The notes below the pieces were generated by a model. It was not told the DNA's origin and did no database searches. It saw only the letters and a program-made list of their open reading frames with translations. A stretch of 64,000 bases of DNA from Deltaproteobacteria bacterium (lineage in GTDB: Bacteria > Desulfobacterota > B13-G15 > RBG-16-54-18): positions 124,001 through 188,000 of the forward strand of contig JAFGNJ010000019.1 of assembly GCA_016927065.1 (NCBI GenBank). Direction: 5' to 3'. Position 1 is the stretch's first letter. Every line of letters starts with the position of its first letter. A program made the translations under genes and the position numbers. Below are positions 2,514 to 11,758 of this stretch, piece after piece.

Positions 2514-3208
2514 ACATCTTGCCTAGGGAAAAGGTGGTGAGTACACAAGTGGACAAGTCTTTCGCGTATCTCCGGCATGGTTGAAAAGTAAAGATCGATA
2601 GACCCTATCTCATCGCGCAAACTGGCATATTTTTCACCGTAGGCATCAAGCCAGGCAGAAAAGTCATCAATACCTTCAGGCGCACGCCTGCGAGCGTCAA
2701 TAAAGTGATAAAAAATGCTGCTGAGCGATAAGGTAGGTAACATCTGTGGCAGCACCATAGGTTCCGTAATGTGATGTTTGGTGTCGAAAACGACTATCTT
2801 GGACCGCTTAAAGTAAAACTGATGATCGGTCCTTGCCCACGGTACTAGTGCACTTTCGTACAGGCGTTCTTCAATAACCTCTATTAATTCTTGGCGCAAG
2901 GCCTCTATGGTGGAAAAATCGGTAGGGTCGACCACTGCAAGCCGTTCGGCCAGTACGGAGTCGTGCAGACCATGGCGTGCCCATGCAGCAAAATCATTAT
3001 TAAACTCAGGCTGATCAAAGCTCGGAGCAAGGCGACGCCCCCAAAAATGATAGTAGATGCTGCTTGGATGGATCGTCTCTAATCTATCTCGCAGCTCCCT
3101 CAAATTCTGAGCTCGGATACCTGTCGCGATGGTAATCAAAGCACAATCTTTGACCAGTAAAGGAAGAGATCCTTGAGTTTTCTTCGCTCTGCTCACAAGA
3201 CCCCTCAT
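2510..3208 (-). CDS. DUF5752-like protein of trehalose cluster
   Basis: IRAQNLRELRDRLETIHPSSIYYHFWG and a second SSIFYHFIDARRR half; sits between treT-like and otsAB genes. Confidence 0.5.
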   Translation of the reverse strand: MRGLVSRAKKTQGSLPLLVKDCALITIATGIRAQNLRELRDRLETIHPSSIYYHFWGRRLAPSFDQPEFNNDFAAWARHGLHDSVLAERLAVVDPTDFSTIEALRQELIEVIEERLYESALVPWARTDHQFYFKRSKIVVFDTKHHITEPMVLPQMLPTLSLSSIFYHFIDARRRAPEGIDDFSAWLDAYGEKYASLRDEIGSIDLYFSTMPEIRERLVHLCTHHLFPRQDV

Positions 3209-5391
3209 CTCCTTTTTATCATTTCCTGTAATAATTCCCTTACCTCGTGTTGTGAGGCGATGTTAAACCGGGCCTTTGACGGACCCAGCCCGACCTTAAT
3301 AGAATAAGCCGTTTCGGGGAGCACGGCAAAGGTATCCTCATCAGTCACATCGTCTCCGATTGCCAGGATGAACTCCCTCTTTTCTTTGGCAAGCCATCGT
3401 TGCGCTGCCCGACCTTTGTTGATCCCGATGTGCCTGATCTCCATAACCTTGCTCCCCTCCAAGACCCCTAGGTCGAGATTGGTGGTAAAGTGCAAGAGCG
3501 CATCCTTCAGCTCCCGTGCGCGTAGCGAGGCCAACGCAGCATCTGCCTTACGGTAGTGCCACACGAGGGAAAACTCCTTTTCCTCTATAAAAGAACCGGG
3601 TGTCCTATCCATGTGCACCTCAAGAATGGACCGTATCTCCTCCTTCCACTCATTTGCAACAGGCTCTAATACCTTCCATCCTCCTTCTTTCAACCACGCG
3701 CCGTGCTCGGCGATCAAACCGAGATTCAAGCTGCCGAACCATTGTTCCAAAGTATCTCTATCTCTCCCGCTGATGATGACTACGTTGTTCCGGGGATCTT
3801 CGGAGAGCCCTTCGAGCAAAGAGAGAAGTTCTTCATTCGGCATTGCCTCTTCGGGTCTCGTAAAAAAGGGTATTAAGGTCCCATCATAATCCAGCAATAG
3901 GAGGCGGCGCGTACTATTGTGATAATCTGCGATGAGTTTCTGTCGCGCCTGTGGGGTTAAGGTTCTCGCCCTCATCTCCTGCTGGTGCTCTTTCGCACTG
4001 ATTAATCGTTCCACGAAATCCTCTGCCCAGCGGGTGACGTTGTAGCGTTGTAGTCTCCTGCGCATGATGCTGTTTCTCTTGATTTGTTCATCTTCCGGCA
4101 TAGCGAGGGCCTCTTCAAGGGCCTCCACTAACTCCTCCTGATGATGGGGATTGACAATGATCGCTTCCCCAAGTTCCTGAGAGGCCCCAGCCATTTCACT
4201 CAGTATCAACACCCCTTTGCCATCGGTTTTACTGGCCAGATATTCTTTTGCAATCAGATTCATCCCGTCCCGCAAGGGGGTAATCAACGCGACATCGGCA
4301 ACGCTATAGAGGGCATTGAGGGTGGGGAAACGTAAAAAACGATAGAGATAGGAGATCGGTGTCCAATCAATGGTACCATGTTCTCCATTAATCTTACCGA
4401 TAAGCTCATCGACCTGTTGCTTAAGCAACTTATAGTGCTCCACTTGTGTGCGCGATGGCACGGCGACGAGGATGAGCGTGACCTTCTCCTTATACTGGGG
4501 ATTTTTCTGCAAAAAGGAATCAAAGGCCTCCAGACGTTGAGGGATGCCCTTTGAGTAATCTAAGCGGTCTATCGAAAGAATGAGCTTCGTGTCTCCAATT
4601 TTTTTTCGCAGTTGTCCCGCCTCTTTTTGCACTTCAGGATTAAGGGGAGCCTTTGCATATCCCTCATAATCTATCCCCATGGGGAATACATCCACTCGAA
4701 TGGTATGATGATCATCACACGTAATGTGCCCTAAAGTATGTTCATAGCCTATGAGATTGCGTATATTACCAAGAAAATGCTGCGCATAGTCATAGGTATG
4801 AAACCCTATCAAATCGGCCCTCAAGAGTCCTTCTAATATCTCTTTTCTCCAGGGAAGCAAATGAAATATTTCATACACAGGAAACGGGATGTGGAGGAAA
4901 AAGCCTATGGTGGCATCCGGCATCCGTTCCCGGATAAGCTTTGGCAGAAGCATCAAATGATAATCGTGGATCCAAATGATGTCATCTTCTTTGGCAACCT
5001 CCAATACGGCATCACAAAAGAGCTTGTTGACGCGTACGTAAGACTTATAAAGCGCCTCATCATATACGACAAACTGGGGAAAGTAATGAAACAAGGGCCA
5101 GATGGTTTTATTGCAAAAACCATGATAGTAATTCTCGACATCGCCTTGTGAGAGAAAGATCGTCTGACAATTGAATTCAGCAAGCAAACGCTTTTCGAGT
5201 ATTTCTTTCTCATTCTCATCTTTTTTTGCTACGGTGATCCCTGGCCAACCAATCCAGAGGCTATTGTATGATTTATAAAAAGATCCCAGCCCGGTCGCCA
5301 CTCCCCCGGCACTGGGCTGAAAATGGAACTGTCCCCTCTTTCTTTCAATACTGACCGGCAATCTATTGGAGACGATTAGTAGTCTGCGCAT
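3205..5391 (-). CDS. Bifunctional trehalose-6-phosphate synthase / trehalose phosphatase
   Basis: N-terminal GT20 (RRLLIVSNRLPVSIERK, IWIHDYHLMLLP, LSIDRLDYSKGIPQRL) fused to HAD phosphatase (LLLLDYDGTLIPF, AIGDDVTDEDTF). Confidence 0.95.
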   Translation of the reverse strand: MRRLLIVSNRLPVSIERKRGQFHFQPSAGGVATGLGSFYKSYNSLWIGWPGITVAKKDENEKEILEKRLLAEFNCQTIFLSQGDVENYYHGFCNKTIWPLFHYFPQFVVYDEALYKSYVRVNKLFCDAVLEVAKEDDIIWIHDYHLMLLPKLIRERMPDATIGFFLHIPFPVYEIFHLLPWRKEILEGLLRADLIGFHTYDYAQHFLGNIRNLIGYEHTLGHITCDDHHTIRVDVFPMGIDYEGYAKAPLNPEVQKEAGQLRKKIGDTKLILSIDRLDYSKGIPQRLEAFDSFLQKNPQYKEKVTLILVAVPSRTQVEHYKLLKQQVDELIGKINGEHGTIDWTPISYLYRFLRFPTLNALYSVADVALITPLRDGMNLIAKEYLASKTDGKGVLILSEMAGASQELGEAIIVNPHHQEELVEALEEALAMPEDEQIKRNSIMRRRLQRYNVTRWAEDFVERLISAKEHQQEMRARTLTPQARQKLIADYHNSTRRLLLLDYDGTLIPFFTRPEEAMPNEELLSLLEGLSEDPRNNVVIISGRDRDTLEQWFGSLNLGLIAEHGAWLKEGGWKVLEPVANEWKEEIRSILEVHMDRTPGSFIEEKEFSLVWHYRKADAALASLRARELKDALLHFTTNLDLGVLEGSKVMEIRHIGINKGRAAQRWLAKEKREFILAIGDDVTDEDTFAVLPETAYSIKVGLGPSKARFNIASQHEVRELLQEMIKRR

Positions 5392-5571
5392 ATAACAACC
5401 TTTTGTGGGTCTATAACCACATTAAAAATGGGAATGATTAAGTGCGTGTGAAGATTTGTTGGAATAGTATACCGTGATTGTCTCTTTAATGCAAGATCAA
5501 GCGAATTCTTTGATTAGCACTTGATAAATGCACTTTGGACGGGGTTTTTAAGTACAATGAGGCGAAATGTG

Positions 5572-6138
5572 TCACCGAGCGAATCTTTTGACACCTTCAT
5601 CATAAAGGTCCTTACCGTAGATATCATTAATCACCACAGCAGGAAAATCCTCTACCTCCAGGCGCCGGATGGCCTCTGGGCCCAGATCAGCGAAGGCGAT
5701 AACTTCGGCTTTCTTAATGCGTTTTGAGAGCAAGGCTCCTGCCCCACCTGTTGCGCCGAAGTAGACGGCCTTGTATTTCTTCATTGAGTCTCTTACTGCT
5801 TGCGACCGCTGCCCCTTGCCGATCATCCCCTTGAGTCCCTGCTCAATCAATCGGTGGGTATAGGCATCCATCCTCCCACTAGTAGTTGGGCCAGCCGAGC
5901 CTATAGGTTGACCCGGCTTGGGTGGTGTTGGCCCCACATAGTAGATAATCTGACCTTGGATATCAAAGGGGAGCTCAGCTCCTTTATCTATAAGCTCGAT
6001 GAGACGTTGGTGGGCAGTATCCCGCGCCGTGTAGATAATACCGGTTATGAGGATATTGTCACCCATACGCAGCCCCCCAACTATCTCATCGGTGAGGGGA
6101 AGGGTAATCCGTTTCGTTATAACGTGTTCCTTTCTCAT
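5572..6138 (-). CDS. Fumarate hydratase C-terminal/beta subunit
   Basis: GPTPPKPGQPIGSAGPTTSGRMDAYTHRLIEQG, KYKAVYFGATGGAGALLSKRIK; adjacent to alpha subunit. Confidence 0.93.
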   Translation of the reverse strand: MRKEHVITKRITLPLTDEIVGGLRMGDNILITGIIYTARDTAHQRLIELIDKGAELPFDIQGQIIYYVGPTPPKPGQPIGSAGPTTSGRMDAYTHRLIEQGLKGMIGKGQRSQAVRDSMKKYKAVYFGATGGAGALLSKRIKKAEVIAFADLGPEAIRRLEVEDFPAVVINDIYGKDLYDEGVKRFAR

Positions 6139-6141
6139 GAA

Positions 6142-6981
6142 CTAGAGCACCTTTTCTTTGTGTCGGTGGGCGTGGCATTGGATGTTGACCGCCACCGGCA
6201 GGCTGGCGATGTGACAGGGGATCATCTCGACGTGCACCGCCAAGGCGGTTGTCCGTCCGCCATATCCCGAGGGTCCAATCCCTAAATCATTGATCCTTGC
6301 CAGGAGGTCGGCCTCCATTGCTGCTAACTCTAGATTGGCATTGGTGCTTCCCACAGGACGCAGAAGCGCCTTCTTTGCTATGAGGGCTGCCTGGTCAAAA
6401 GTACCGCCGATCCCGACTCCAACGATGATGGGTGGACACGGGTTCGCACCTGACTCCTTGACCCGTTGCACTATAAATTCCTTAACACCCTCAAGGCCCG
6501 CAGCCGATGCAAGCATCCTTATCCCGCTCATGTTCTCGCTGCCGCCGCCCTTAGGGAGAACGATAATCTTGACCCTGTCCCCTGGGACAACTTCCAAATG
6601 GATAATGACCGGAGTATTGTCGCCGGTATTCTGACGGGTAAAACAATGGCAGATTGATGGGCGCAGATAACCATCGCGATAACCGTCTCGTACACCCTGA
6701 GTGATCGCCTCAGTAAGGTCTCCCTCCATGAGGTGCACATCCTGTCCAAGCTCGACGAAGACCACCGCCAATCCTGTATCCTGGCAGATAGGCATAACTT
6801 CTTGTTGCGCAATCCGGGCATTCTCGATCAGCTCGGTGAGGACCTCCTTGCCGATCGCAGACTCTTCTTTCTCAAGGGCCTGCTGCAAAGCCAACACTAC
6901 ATCCTCACCAAGGGTGCAGTTTGCATCGATGAAGAGATCTCTCACGGCCTGGGTTATCTCATCGATAGCGACCTCTCTCAT
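6142..6981 (-). CDS. Fumarate hydratase N-terminal/alpha subunit
   Basis: [61 protein letters not shown]. Confidence 0.93.
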
Positions 6982-8195
6982 GTATCCCCCATATTCTTAA
7001 CTACCGCCTCACCAAATTGGGAACAACTCAGAAGGGTTGCCCCTTGCATTTGGCGATGGAGATCATACGTAACGGTCTTAGCCTGAATAGTCTTCTGCAA
7101 TGCCTCTTCAATGAGTCTGGCGGTTTCAATCCATCCGAGGTACTCCAACATCATCGCGCCGGAGAGGATCATGGAGCCGGGGTTAACCTTATCCTGACCT
7201 GCATACTTTGGGGCACTCCCATGGGTGGCCTCGAAAATGGCCACCTCATCACCAACATTGGCACCAGGGGCCATCCCCAACCCACCAACCTGCGCGGCAC
7301 AGGCATCGGATAAATAGTCGCCATTGAGGTTCGGCATCACCAGGACATCGTAATCCTCCGGCCGCACGAGAACTTGCTGGAACATGGCATCAGCAAGGCG
7401 ATCTTTGATGACTACCATCCCATCGGGCACGGCCCCGACTTTCTCTATTTCATCCTCCCTGATTACCTTTCCTGGAAATCTCTCTGCAGCTACTTCGTAC
7501 CCCCAATCTCGAAAGGCCCCCTCCGTGTATTTCATGATGTTCCCCTTATGGACCAGGGTCACACTTCGCCGTCCATGCTCCAGGGCATATTCAATAGCCC
7601 GTCGCACCAGACGCTTGGTGGCAAAAGGACTGATGGGCTTTATTCCAATACCTGAAGCATCCCGCACCTCCGCACCCATTTCTTCGCGCAGAAAGCGTAT
7701 CATCTTCTTGCCCTCATTACTCTCTCCTTGCCACTCTATCCCCGCGTAGACATCCTCCGTGTTCTCACGGAAGATGGCAAAATTTACCTTTCCGGGATTC
7801 TTGAGCGGAGAAGGAGTGCCTTGTATATACCGGATGGGCCTAATACAGGCGTAGAGGTCAAAAAGCTGCCTCAGGGTTACATTGAGACTACGGAATCCGC
7901 CCGCTATTGGCGTTGTTAACGGGCCTTTAATCGCTACCTTGTAGTGACCGATGGCCTCAAGGGTTTCGGGGGGAAGGGGGGTCTGGTAACGTTGTATGGC
8001 CTCCTCGCCTGCCCACGCCTCCTGCCAGGCGATCTTTCGTCTTCCGGCATAGGCACGTTGCACCGCAGCATCTATGACCCCCACCGCCGCGCGCCAGATA
8101 TCCGGTCCCACCCCGTCGCCCTGGATAAAAACGATTGAGGGATTCTCAGGGACCGACGTGACGTTGCCGTCCTCTGTCTCTATGACCCCACCCAT
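6978..8195 (-). CDS. icd: Isocitrate dehydrogenase (NADP-type)
   Basis: [85 protein letters not shown]. Confidence 0.95.
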
Positions 8196-8198
8196 CGC

Positions 8199-10022
8199 TC
8201 AGGTCAAATCTTCCGTCTTGATCAGTTCTTCAAACCTCAGGTCCATCCCCAGGATCCCCACAATCGCCTCGTCCTTATTGCGGATGGGAGCGGAGACGGT
8301 GATGCAGAGGGCGCCGGTGATCACCGAGGTATAGAAATTGGTCACATACACCTTGCCAGTCTTAAAGGGCTCGATAAACCACTCCCGATTGGAGTAGTCA
8401 ACGTCGGAACCGATTTTCTCGTATTTCGCCCGATCTTCGGGACGGGTGATATTCCTGGTGATCTTGTGTCCCTTGTCGTCGGTGACGTAGAGGAATTGGA
8501 TAAAAGGATTTTCGTGCTCGATCTTCTCCAAGAGGGCCTCCTGACGAGGGGGATCCATGGAGCGTATGTCGGGATCGTCCACCACTTCTTCGATGAGGTG
8601 GGCGGCCATCTCATAGGCACGCTGTTTAATCAGGTCGAAATCGGAGATGAAGAGCTCGGGGAGGTACTTGCGGGCCTTTTTTCCCATCTCATCTGATGAG
8701 ATATCGGTAGTCCTCCCCTGGTCATACTCATTTTTGACCCATTTATATATCTTGGCTACGCCGGGATGCCGCTTGTCCAGGCGCTCCCCCTCTTGCAGGG
8801 CGAAGTAGGCATTGATCCACTGGGCGATTCCCGCGGTCCCCGATTTGTCATTTATGGTTATGGTTAAAGGCCTGTTGAGGATCTTTGTGGTGTTGAAGAT
8901 GTTGTAAATCTGTTCATCCTTGAGGATGCCGTCGGCGTGGATGCCCGCTCTGGTGGTATTGAACTCGGCCCCCACAAAGGGGTAGTTTTTGGGGATATGT
9001 TCGCCGATGACCCGCTCATAGTAATTCCTGATCTCGGTGATAACGGTGGGATCGACTCCGTTCTGATCCCCCGTCAGGCTGATATAGTCGATGATCAACC
9101 CCTCAATAGGGGCATTGCCAGTCCTCTCTCCAAACCCGAGCAGACTGCCGTTGATCCCCGAACAGCCGTAGAGCCAGGCGGTCGTGGAGTTTACGAGGAC
9201 CTTGTGGAAGTCATTGTGGCCGTGCCATTCGAGCTCCTCCGAGGGGATTCCGGCATCTTCGACAAGGGCGTGTATGAGCTTCGGCACGCTCCGCGGCAGG
9301 GCCGTACCGGGATAGGGGACCCCCAATCCCAGGGTATCGCACAGCCTGATCTTGACCGTCATCCCCCCTTCCTGAGCCAGACGCATGAGCTCCTGGGCCA
9401 AGGGGACCACAAAGCCGTAGATATCCGCCCTGGTGATGTCCTCGAAGTGACAGCGCGGCTTTACCCCCTCCGCCAGGGCCGCCTCCACGACCCTGAGGTA
9501 GTCGATCATGGCGGTTCTGCGGTTTTTCCCTAGTTTCAAAAAGATATGATAGTCCGATACCGAGGTCAGGATCCCCGTCTCTTTGAGGCCCATCTCCCGG
9601 ACCAGCTTAAAATCATCTTTATTCGCTCTGATCCATCCCGTAACCTCGGGGTACCGATATCCTTTTGCAAAACAGTGCTGCACGGCCTCTTTATCTCTAT
9701 CACTATAGAGAAAGAATTCAGTCTGGCGGATGACACCATTGGGTCCTCCGAGGCGATGGAGCATATCGTAAAGGTCGACTATCTGTTGGACGGTATAGGG
9801 CGGCCGAGCCTGTTGTCCGTCGCGAAAGGTGGTGTCGGTGATAAAAATCTCTTCGGGGGGATCGATCAGCTCGACACGGTGGTCGAATTCAACGCGACAT
9901 ACTTCTTCGTAGGGGAAGACATCACGAAACAAATTGGGCTCACCCACATCCTGCAGCTGAAATCTCTCCCGCTTCTTGAAACGATTGTCGAGAAAGCTCT
10001 TGCTCTTTTTCATAGTAACCAT
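8199..10022 (-). CDS. Re-citrate synthase-like enzyme (HMGL/isopropylmalate-synthase superfamily) with C-terminal Cache/PDC-like domain
   Basis: DTTFRDGQQARPPYT, KPRCHFEDITRADIYGFV, LEWHGHNDFHKVLVNSTTAWLYGCSGINGSLLGFGERTGNAP; C-terminal YSNREWFIEPFKTGKVYVTNFYTSVITGALCITVSAPIRNKDEAIVGILGMDLRFEEL resembles a Cache/PDC sensor. Upstream of icd. Confidence 0.78.
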   Translation of the reverse strand: MVTMKKSKSFLDNRFKKRERFQLQDVGEPNLFRDVFPYEEVCRVEFDHRVELIDPPEEIFITDTTFRDGQQARPPYTVQQIVDLYDMLHRLGGPNGVIRQTEFFLYSDRDKEAVQHCFAKGYRYPEVTGWIRANKDDFKLVREMGLKETGILTSVSDYHIFLKLGKNRRTAMIDYLRVVEAALAEGVKPRCHFEDITRADIYGFVVPLAQELMRLAQEGGMTVKIRLCDTLGLGVPYPGTALPRSVPKLIHALVEDAGIPSEELEWHGHNDFHKVLVNSTTAWLYGCSGINGSLLGFGERTGNAPIEGLIIDYISLTGDQNGVDPTVITEIRNYYERVIGEHIPKNYPFVGAEFNTTRAGIHADGILKDEQIYNIFNTTKILNRPLTITINDKSGTAGIAQWINAYFALQEGERLDKRHPGVAKIYKWVKNEYDQGRTTDISSDEMGKKARKYLPELFISDFDLIKQRAYEMAAHLIEEVVDDPDIRSMDPPRQEALLEKIEHENPFIQFLYVTDDKGHKITRNITRPEDRAKYEKIGSDVDYSNREWFIEPFKTGKVYVTNFYTSVITGALCITVSAPIRNKDEAIVGILGMDLRFEELIKTEDLT

Positions 10023-10618: not shown

Positions 10619-11758
10619 ATGACCGAGTTTCTAAGCACCATGTTACTGAAGACGGGCTTTATGAGCCTAGAGGTGAAGCATCTCGTTATGTGGCTCATAG
10701 GTTTTTTATTCATCTATCTGGCCATTAAAAAGGAATATGAGCCCCTGCTCCTCCTGCCTATAGGGTTTGCGATTCTAGCCGTCAACCTACCCCTTACCGG
10801 CCTCATGGAGGAAGGCGGCTTATTTCAGATCTTCTATCACTTTGGTCTGGAGTGGGAGGTGATCCCCCCCCTTATCTTTCTCGGCATAGGCGCGATGACC
10901 GATTTCGGCCCTCTCATCGCCAATCCCAAGACCTTGCTTTTAGGAGCAGCCGCTCAGTTCGGGGTGTACGTTGCGTTCTTCGGGGCACTCTTGATCGGAT
11001 ACATATTTCCTAAGATCGGCTTCGGGATTCCTGAGGCCTGCTCCATCGGGATCATCGGCGGGGCAGACGGTCCAACAACCATCTTCACCACCGTAAAGCT
11101 TGCACCTCATCTTTTGGGTGCGACCGCCGTTGCGGCCTACTCCTACATGTCCATGGTCCCTATCATTCAGCCTCCGATTATGAAGCTACTCACCTCCGAA
11201 AAAGAGCGTAAAATCAAGATGCGACAGCTGAGGTCGGTGTCTCATCTCGAGAAAATTCTCTTCCCCCTAGCCGCCACCTTGATCATCTGCCTTATCGTTC
11301 CACCTGCTGCCCCGCTGATGGCCATGTTTATGATCGGTAACCTCTTTAGAGAATCAGGGGTCGTAAAAAGGTTGACCGGCGCTGCCCAGAACGAACTGAT
11401 GAATATCGTCACCATCTTCTTGGGGGTGTCGGTAGGGGCCACTATGTCGGCGGACAGCTTTCTCAGGCCCCAGGCCTTGCTGATATTTGCCCTGGGTTTG
11501 GTGGCCTTTGTCTTCAGCACTGCGGGTGGATTGATGTTGGCAAAACTGATGAATCTCTTTCTCAAGGAGAAGATCAATCCCCTCATCGGATCGGCAGGGG
11601 TCTCCGCAGTCCCCATGGCATCCAGAGTGACGCAAAAGCTTGGCGCCGAAGCAGACCCCCAAAACTTCCTCCTCATGCATGCCATGGGTCCTAATATAGC
11701 CGGGGTCATTGGTACCGTGGTGGCCGCAGGCTTCTTTATCTCCATGGCAGGAGGTTAA
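10619..11758 (+). CDS. Na+-translocating decarboxylase beta subunit (glutaconyl-CoA/methylmalonyl-CoA/oxaloacetate type)
   Basis: [80 protein letters not shown]; polytopic. Confidence 0.95.

Follow-up and report, generated by a model that had tools for sequence, protein, structure and literature searches.

Citrate synthase sets the entry into the oxidative branch of the tricarboxylic acid (TCA) cycle, and the regulation of Re-citrate synthases in strict anaerobes is, to our knowledge, little known. Cache domains form the largest superfamily of extracellular sensors in prokaryotes. The 64,000-nucleotide stretch of DNA analysed here (the window) carries a gene in which the two appear to be joined, and so raises the question of what a sensor domain that is usually found outside cells does at the end of an enzyme. 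A preliminary description, made from the sequence, had proposed an intracellular allosteric sensor that controls carbon entry into the oxidative TCA branch.

Domain architecture of the protein

The open reading frame claimed at positions 8199-10022 was recovered at exactly these coordinates, and lies on the minus strand. Its N-terminal part, thought to belong to the HMGL/isopropylmalate synthase superfamily, matched the HMGL-like family PF00682 at 96.7 bits against a cut-off of 29. Its C-terminal part, which had been called Cache/PDC-like, matched PF22673 (MCP-like_PDC_1) at 60.5 bits against a cut-off of 27, in agreement with the AlphaFold2 and Foldseek results described below. The dCache_1 profile also aligned with residues 494-600, with a score (41.5 bits) slightly below its cut-off. 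Sequence searches of the PDB gave citramalate, homocitrate and isopropylmalate synthases as the best matches to the N-terminal part, and chemoreceptor Cache domains as the best matches to the C-terminal part.

Both PF00682 and PF22673 were matched in all 59 full-length homologues scanned (E ≤ 0.001 for PF22673), so the pairing of the two domains is no chance event. The boundary between them falls at about residue 460, the point at which homologues lacking the Cache domain stop; the Cache domain is therefore a clean C-terminal module. The region weakly resembling HCS_D2 (PF22617), which precedes this boundary, was matched in 11 of the 59 homologues. As had been noted before, the protein is without a membrane anchor: a 19-residue Kyte-Doolittle scan found no hydrophobic or transmembrane segment, with a maximum mean of 1.4. 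The flanking transmembrane helices of the typical extracytoplasmic setting, which are not defining for Cache domains, are thus not found in this protein. The positions of all features are collected in Table 1.

Table 1. Positions in the window of the fusion gene, its domains and predicted functional residues, and the genes that follow it
Feature	Positions	Strand	Basis
Fusion gene: Re-citrate-synthase-like part plus C-terminal Cache domain	8199..10022	-	607 aa, 69.5 kDa, ATG start
HMGL-like (DRE-TIM) catalytic barrel, residues 60-332	9027..9845	-	PF00682, 2e-27; PDB homologues
R67-D68 in FRDGQQ motif; D68 predicted metal ligand	9819..9824	-	Invariant in 59 homologues
H267-G-H269 in EWHGHND motif; predicted metal ligands	9216..9224	-	Invariant
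N303 in GERTGN motif; predicted metal ligand	9114..9116	-	Invariant
Post-barrel subdomain region, residues 336-460; weak HCS_D2 likeness	8643..9017	-	PF22617, E 0.002, below cut-off
C-terminal Cache module, residues 461-604: helix 461-481, then alpha/beta Cache fold	8211..8642	-	AlphaFold2, Foldseek
PF22673 (MCP-like_PDC_1) match, residues 496-600	8223..8537	-	Pfam profile
R546-E-W548-F549 (R546 aligned to R131 of KinD), putative motif for carboxylate binding	8376..8387	-	Profile alignment, conservation
Y564-T-S566; invariant Ser at PctA-type Asp position	8325..8333	-	Profile alignment, conservation
D594, invariant Asp of the Cache pocket	8241..8243	-	Profile alignment, conservation
NADP-type isocitrate dehydrogenase, 3 bases downstream of the synthase	6978..8195	-	TIGR00183, 627 bits, above cut-off
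Class I fumarase alpha subunit, 4-base overlap with the isocitrate dehydrogenase gene	6142..6981	-	NCBIfam
Class I fumarase beta subunit	5572..6138	-	NCBIfam

Isopropylmalate and citramalate synthases are laid out like the window protein, with a barrel followed by subdomains and then a regulatory domain at the C-terminus. In those enzymes the regulatory domain is LeuA_dimer, to which the window protein had no match in the Pfam scan; in its place stands the Cache domain, which has an unrelated fold. The DRE-TIM site itself is intact, with the metal-site residues D68, H267, H269 and N303 invariant in the 59 homologues. The role of D68 as a metal ligand is predicted by analogy with DRE-TIM metallolyases.

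Kinship and genome context of the enzyme

No Si-citrate synthase (PF00285) was found in the host genome; one is present in 13 of 14 control genomes. The window enzyme is the only citrate synthase found in its genome. Among 198 genomes of the phylum, 87 had the Re type only and 75 the Si type only, while both types occurred together in 14 and were missing from 22 (Fisher p 3e-20, uncorrected for kinship; the Si-type count leaves out partial PF00285 matches of the kind expected from ATP-citrate-lyase-like proteins). The two types of citrate synthase largely substitute for one another across these genomes.

The genes that follow the synthase gene encode further enzymes of the TCA cycle (Table 1), and an aconitase family member is encoded elsewhere in the host genome. 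Isocitrate dehydrogenase is a recurrent neighbour in Desulfovibrio and other groups: of 126 loci, many with short flanks, 25 have it on the synthase strand at a distance of no more than 3 kb. At a locus from the Syntrophorhabdaceae (L054), an aconitase-family gene is located between the synthase and isocitrate dehydrogenase genes. An Rfam scan of the 64-kb window found no riboswitch. A bifunctional trehalose-6-phosphate synthase/phosphatase gene (3205-5391, minus strand) lies downstream of the fumarase genes and is read in their direction. On the other side, a gene for the beta subunit of a Na+-translocating carboxylate decarboxylase (10619-11758, plus strand) is divergent from the citrate synthase gene, and the same divergent pair is present in three relatives from the family (L004, L005 and L008).

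Two groups of Re-citrate synthases bear on the identity of the enzyme. In Kuenenia stuttgartiensis, 13C tracing showed that 2-oxoglutarate is made oxidatively although no citrate synthase is annotated, and KSMBR1_RS10820, which is 55.1% identical to the Clostridium kluyveri enzyme and adjoins succinate-CoA ligase, was posited as a Re-citrate synthase (PMC8027424). We judged closeness against the corresponding protein of Kuenenia hertensis (L131), the Syntrophales protein L140, the LeuA of the host genome and NCBIfam models; the catalytic part of the window protein was 60% identical to L131. The L131 gene adjoins succinyl-CoA ligase genes, matching the neighbourhood of KSMBR1_RS10820. The anammox proteins differ from the window protein in being about 457-472 amino acids long and in having no Cache domain.

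The enzyme of Syntrophus aciditrophicus is among the known, isolated Re-citrate synthases (PMC12016533). The L140 protein (genome G435, order Syntrophales; 4581-6485, minus strand) is a full-length ortholog that runs collinearly with the window protein through both domains (860.8 bits) and itself matches PF22673. We take genome G435 to be S. aciditrophicus SB, and L140 to be probably its Re-citrate synthase SYN_02536, a gene once annotated as an isopropylmalate, homocitrate or citramalate synthase. The calculated mass of L140 is 71.8 kDa for the 629-amino-acid form and 73.0 kDa with a Strep-tag. The tagged S. aciditrophicus enzyme purified by Kim et al. in 2013 reportedly had a subunit of 72.9 kDa, and is said to have been a tetramer that was active as purified, with no added effector. 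The collinearity, the PF22673 match and the fit in mass together make it very probable that the characterised S. aciditrophicus Re-citrate synthase is already a Cache fusion. If G435 is indeed S. aciditrophicus and the reported subunit mass is right, Re-citrate synthase activity has already been demonstrated for an enzyme fused to a Cache domain. We know of no report in which its C-terminal domain was recognised as Cache or tested for ligands.

The L140 locus differs from the window in its surroundings: the synthase gene is flanked by AspS and HisS and not by TCA genes, whereas the window has isocitrate dehydrogenase and fumarase. An aspartyl-tRNA synthetase gene is found directly upstream of the Re-citrate synthase gene in several Syntrophales and Syntrophorhabdales, for no obvious reason (L054:849-7414, L060:3926-7830 and L140:4581-9636).

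The lack of a Si-type enzyme in the genome, the isocitrate dehydrogenase and fumarase neighbours, the identity to the anammox candidate and the full-length orthology with the probable S. aciditrophicus enzyme strongly support the original assignment of the window protein as a Re-citrate synthase. We infer Re stereochemistry for its reaction.

Fold, pocket and proposed role of the Cache domain

An AlphaFold2 model of residues 436-607, made with 65 sequences, had a pLDDT of 83.3 and a pTM of 0.76, with a long N-terminal helix heading the Cache module. Foldseek comparison of this model with the PDB gave 139 matches at E ≤ 0.001. The best was the KinD sensor domain (4jgq, 3.6e-9), and further matches included Tlp3, the cytosolic protein YkuI, DctB, PctA/PctC and Mlp24. 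The fold check suggested in the preliminary description thus groups the C-terminus with Cache sensors. A location inside the cell has precedent, as the Cache families YkuI_C and Diacid_rec are known to be mainly intracellular (PMC4822843). A model of the full-length protein had a pTM of 0.71, and the packing of the Cache domain in the oligomer is not fixed by it.

The KinD sensor domain of Bacillus subtilis (4jgo, 4jgp, 4jgq) serves a histidine kinase from outside the cytoplasm and is 19% identical to the Cache domain of the window protein. The two have a Y-x-S-x-I-T-G segment in common, and R131 of KinD corresponds to R546. This arginine is mutated (R131A) in 4jgq and 4jgr, and the KinD sensor was crystallised with pyruvate in 4jgp. 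In a profile alignment with PctA, residues R126, W128, Y144 and D173 of that receptor correspond to R546, W548, Y564 and D594. The difference lies at D146 of PctA, where the window Cache clade has the invariant S566. The PctA-type amino-acid motif, as we understand it, combines a carboxylate-binding Arg/Trp pair with amine-binding Asp residues at D146 and D173. With D146 replaced by S566, the Cache domain in the window therefore does not have the amino-acid-binding dCache motif.

W548, F549, S566 and D594 are invariant in the 59 homologues, and R546 is conserved in 92% of them. Entropy is lower at the pocket positions than in the remainder of the Cache domain (p 7e-5), a test that is weakened because these positions partly coincide with the generic Cache signature. 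Values of dN/dS were 0.05-0.07 in the catalytic and 0.06-0.12 in the C-terminal part, so that purifying selection acts on the Cache domain about as strongly as on the enzyme.

We consider it probable that the protein is a Re-type citrate synthase with a C-terminal Cache domain that senses a small carboxylate and tunes entry into the oxidative branch. The enzyme, a member of the C. kluyveri/Syntrophus clade, would convert acetyl-CoA and oxaloacetate to citrate. The Cache domain, a type that some chemoreceptors carry at their cytosolic C-terminus, sits where the sister enzymes have LeuA_dimer, and would most likely bind a small cytosolic carboxylate through R546 and W548, with Y564, S566 and D594. 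Candidate ligands are pyruvate, other 2-oxoacids and short organic acids; the resemblance to KinD leads us to guess that the ligand is possibly pyruvate or another small organic acid. Binding would be transmitted in cis to the catalytic homo-oligomer and alter its activity, in an allosteric direction that we likewise infer, so that carbon entry to the oxidative branch (citrate, isocitrate, 2-oxoglutarate, glutamate) would be tuned. Of the sensor originally proposed, the cytoplasmic Cache domain is borne out, and control of carbon entry by allosteric sensing would be the best explanation for it, with pocket conservation and purifying selection in support. As the probable Syntrophus ortholog was reportedly active without an effector, the Cache domain would not be needed for basal activity, which argues against strict gating. 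The wider proposition, that a cytosolic carboxylate-binding Cache domain is the allosteric regulator of the sole citrate synthase across a broad set of anaerobes and replaces a LeuA_dimer-type domain, we regard as evenly poised between true and false.

The main alternative is that the Cache domain of this Re-citrate synthase is a structural module for oligomerisation or stability, with no physiological ligand. The Syntrophus enzyme, reportedly a tetramer working without effector, would fit such a module. So would the long helix (residues 461-481) that the Cache module adds and the existence of lineages that manage without the domain, and PAS and Cache domains are also described as dimerisation domains (PMC8694187). 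However, R546, W548, F549, S566 and D594 are among the best conserved positions of the domain, and R546 corresponds to the arginine replaced in the KinD mutant and retained in PctA. Were the module there for dimerisation alone, no such conservation of a pocket would be required, and we find this explanation rather unlikely.

The relatives of the domain outside enzymes suggest a second alternative, that it docks a partner, or that the citrate synthase itself signals as a reporter of metabolic state, rather than being regulated in its catalysis. A search with the chemoreceptor form as query returned a few chemoreceptors whose cytosolic Cache domain is likewise C-terminal, followed by the C-termini of Re-citrate synthases as the next-best matches. 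Among proteins that are not enzymes, these chemoreceptors have the Cache domains nearest to those of the Re-citrate synthases. They have the same Cache subtype in the same C-terminal cytosolic position, but their output is an MCP signalling domain and no enzyme. Genomes G065, G089, G106 and G118 carry both the fusion and the chemoreceptor form. The host genome, however, has no MCP signalling domain at all, so that the Cache domain in the window is no part of chemotaxis and must act elsewhere, most simply on the fused enzyme. The fusion is also present in many genomes for which the search showed no chemoreceptor of this kind, and docking or signalling seems improbable.

The chemoreceptors themselves (L039:3952-5541, minus strand; L040:3347-4621, plus; L041:3957-5366, minus; L144:649-1962, plus; L153:64-1935, plus) have the MCP signalling domain ahead of the Cache domain, opposite to the usual arrangement, and mostly have no obvious transmembrane segments. 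A seemingly stand-alone Cache protein (L042) was set aside as probably a truncated chemoreceptor, because its open reading frame is at a contig end.

That the protein is instead a homocitrate, isopropylmalate or citramalate synthase with a Cache domain, as the common superfamily, weak matches to the nifV_homocitr and LeuA models and the former annotation of the Syntrophus gene might suggest, is highly improbable: all scores with the curated NCBIfam models are far below cut-off (NifV, TIGR02660, 140 against 463 bits; homocitrate synthase, TIGR02146, 105 against 414 bits), the genome holds a separate LeuA, about 30% identical to the window protein, near a LeuC/aconitase-family gene (L002, L135), the neighbouring gene encodes isocitrate dehydrogenase and not LeuB, and the kinship to the anammox candidate and the probable Syntrophus enzyme and the distribution complementary to Si-citrate synthase both disagree with it. 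The grouping with homocitrate and isopropylmalate synthases against which the preliminary description had cautioned was accordingly not seen.

Re-citrate synthases and Cache domains are both known, and their fusion seems to be undescribed. None of the literature searched links Cache or PDC domains to citrate synthase, and the outputs in a survey of Cache architectures are those of signal transduction (PMC4822843). If allosteric sensing is the true role of the domain, the outputs of Cache domains would no longer be confined to signalling proteins but would include a central metabolic enzyme, and the first step of the oxidative half of the Krebs cycle would probably be catalysed by an enzyme that senses a small molecule directly.

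Distribution of the fusion

The survey of homologues that had been suggested earlier showed that the fusion is kept as a rule in the clade and is missing from a few lines, including the anammox bacteria. It is present in about 100 of the 198 sampled genomes of the phylum, which contained two full Cache-less forms, and in 92 of 149 Syntrophales genomes, fragments included. Among named genomes, a sample biased to close relatives of the fused query, it was found in Thermodesulfobacteriota (including Desulfovibrio), Nitrospirota, Spirochaetota, Omnitrophota, Elusimicrobiota, Lentisphaerota, Fibrobacterota and Margulisiibacteriota. With the sensor domain in so many sampled genomes of one phylum and in several phyla, the question of regulation would be directly testable, and on an enzyme that has probably been purified already from Syntrophus.

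Cache-less forms occur in anammox and other Planctomycetota, Firestonebacteria and Auribacterota, and the Cache domain is therefore dispensable for this type of enzyme. No Cache remnants were detected behind the Cache-less homologues past the first 25 or so profile columns, which correspond to the end of the catalytic part. A plasmid collection held no fused homologue, only Cache-less Deinococcus proteins of about 36% identity. A tree taken without clostridial sequences requires at least three changes between fused and Cache-less forms. A single-origin tree was rejected, the LeuA outgroup being far too distant to root it; with an unreliable root and a minimum of three changes, gain and loss of the domain are indistinguishable. 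The two Cache-less forms within the phylum (L032:2945-4312, plus strand, and L033:2352-3734, minus strand) are natural controls for the role of the domain.
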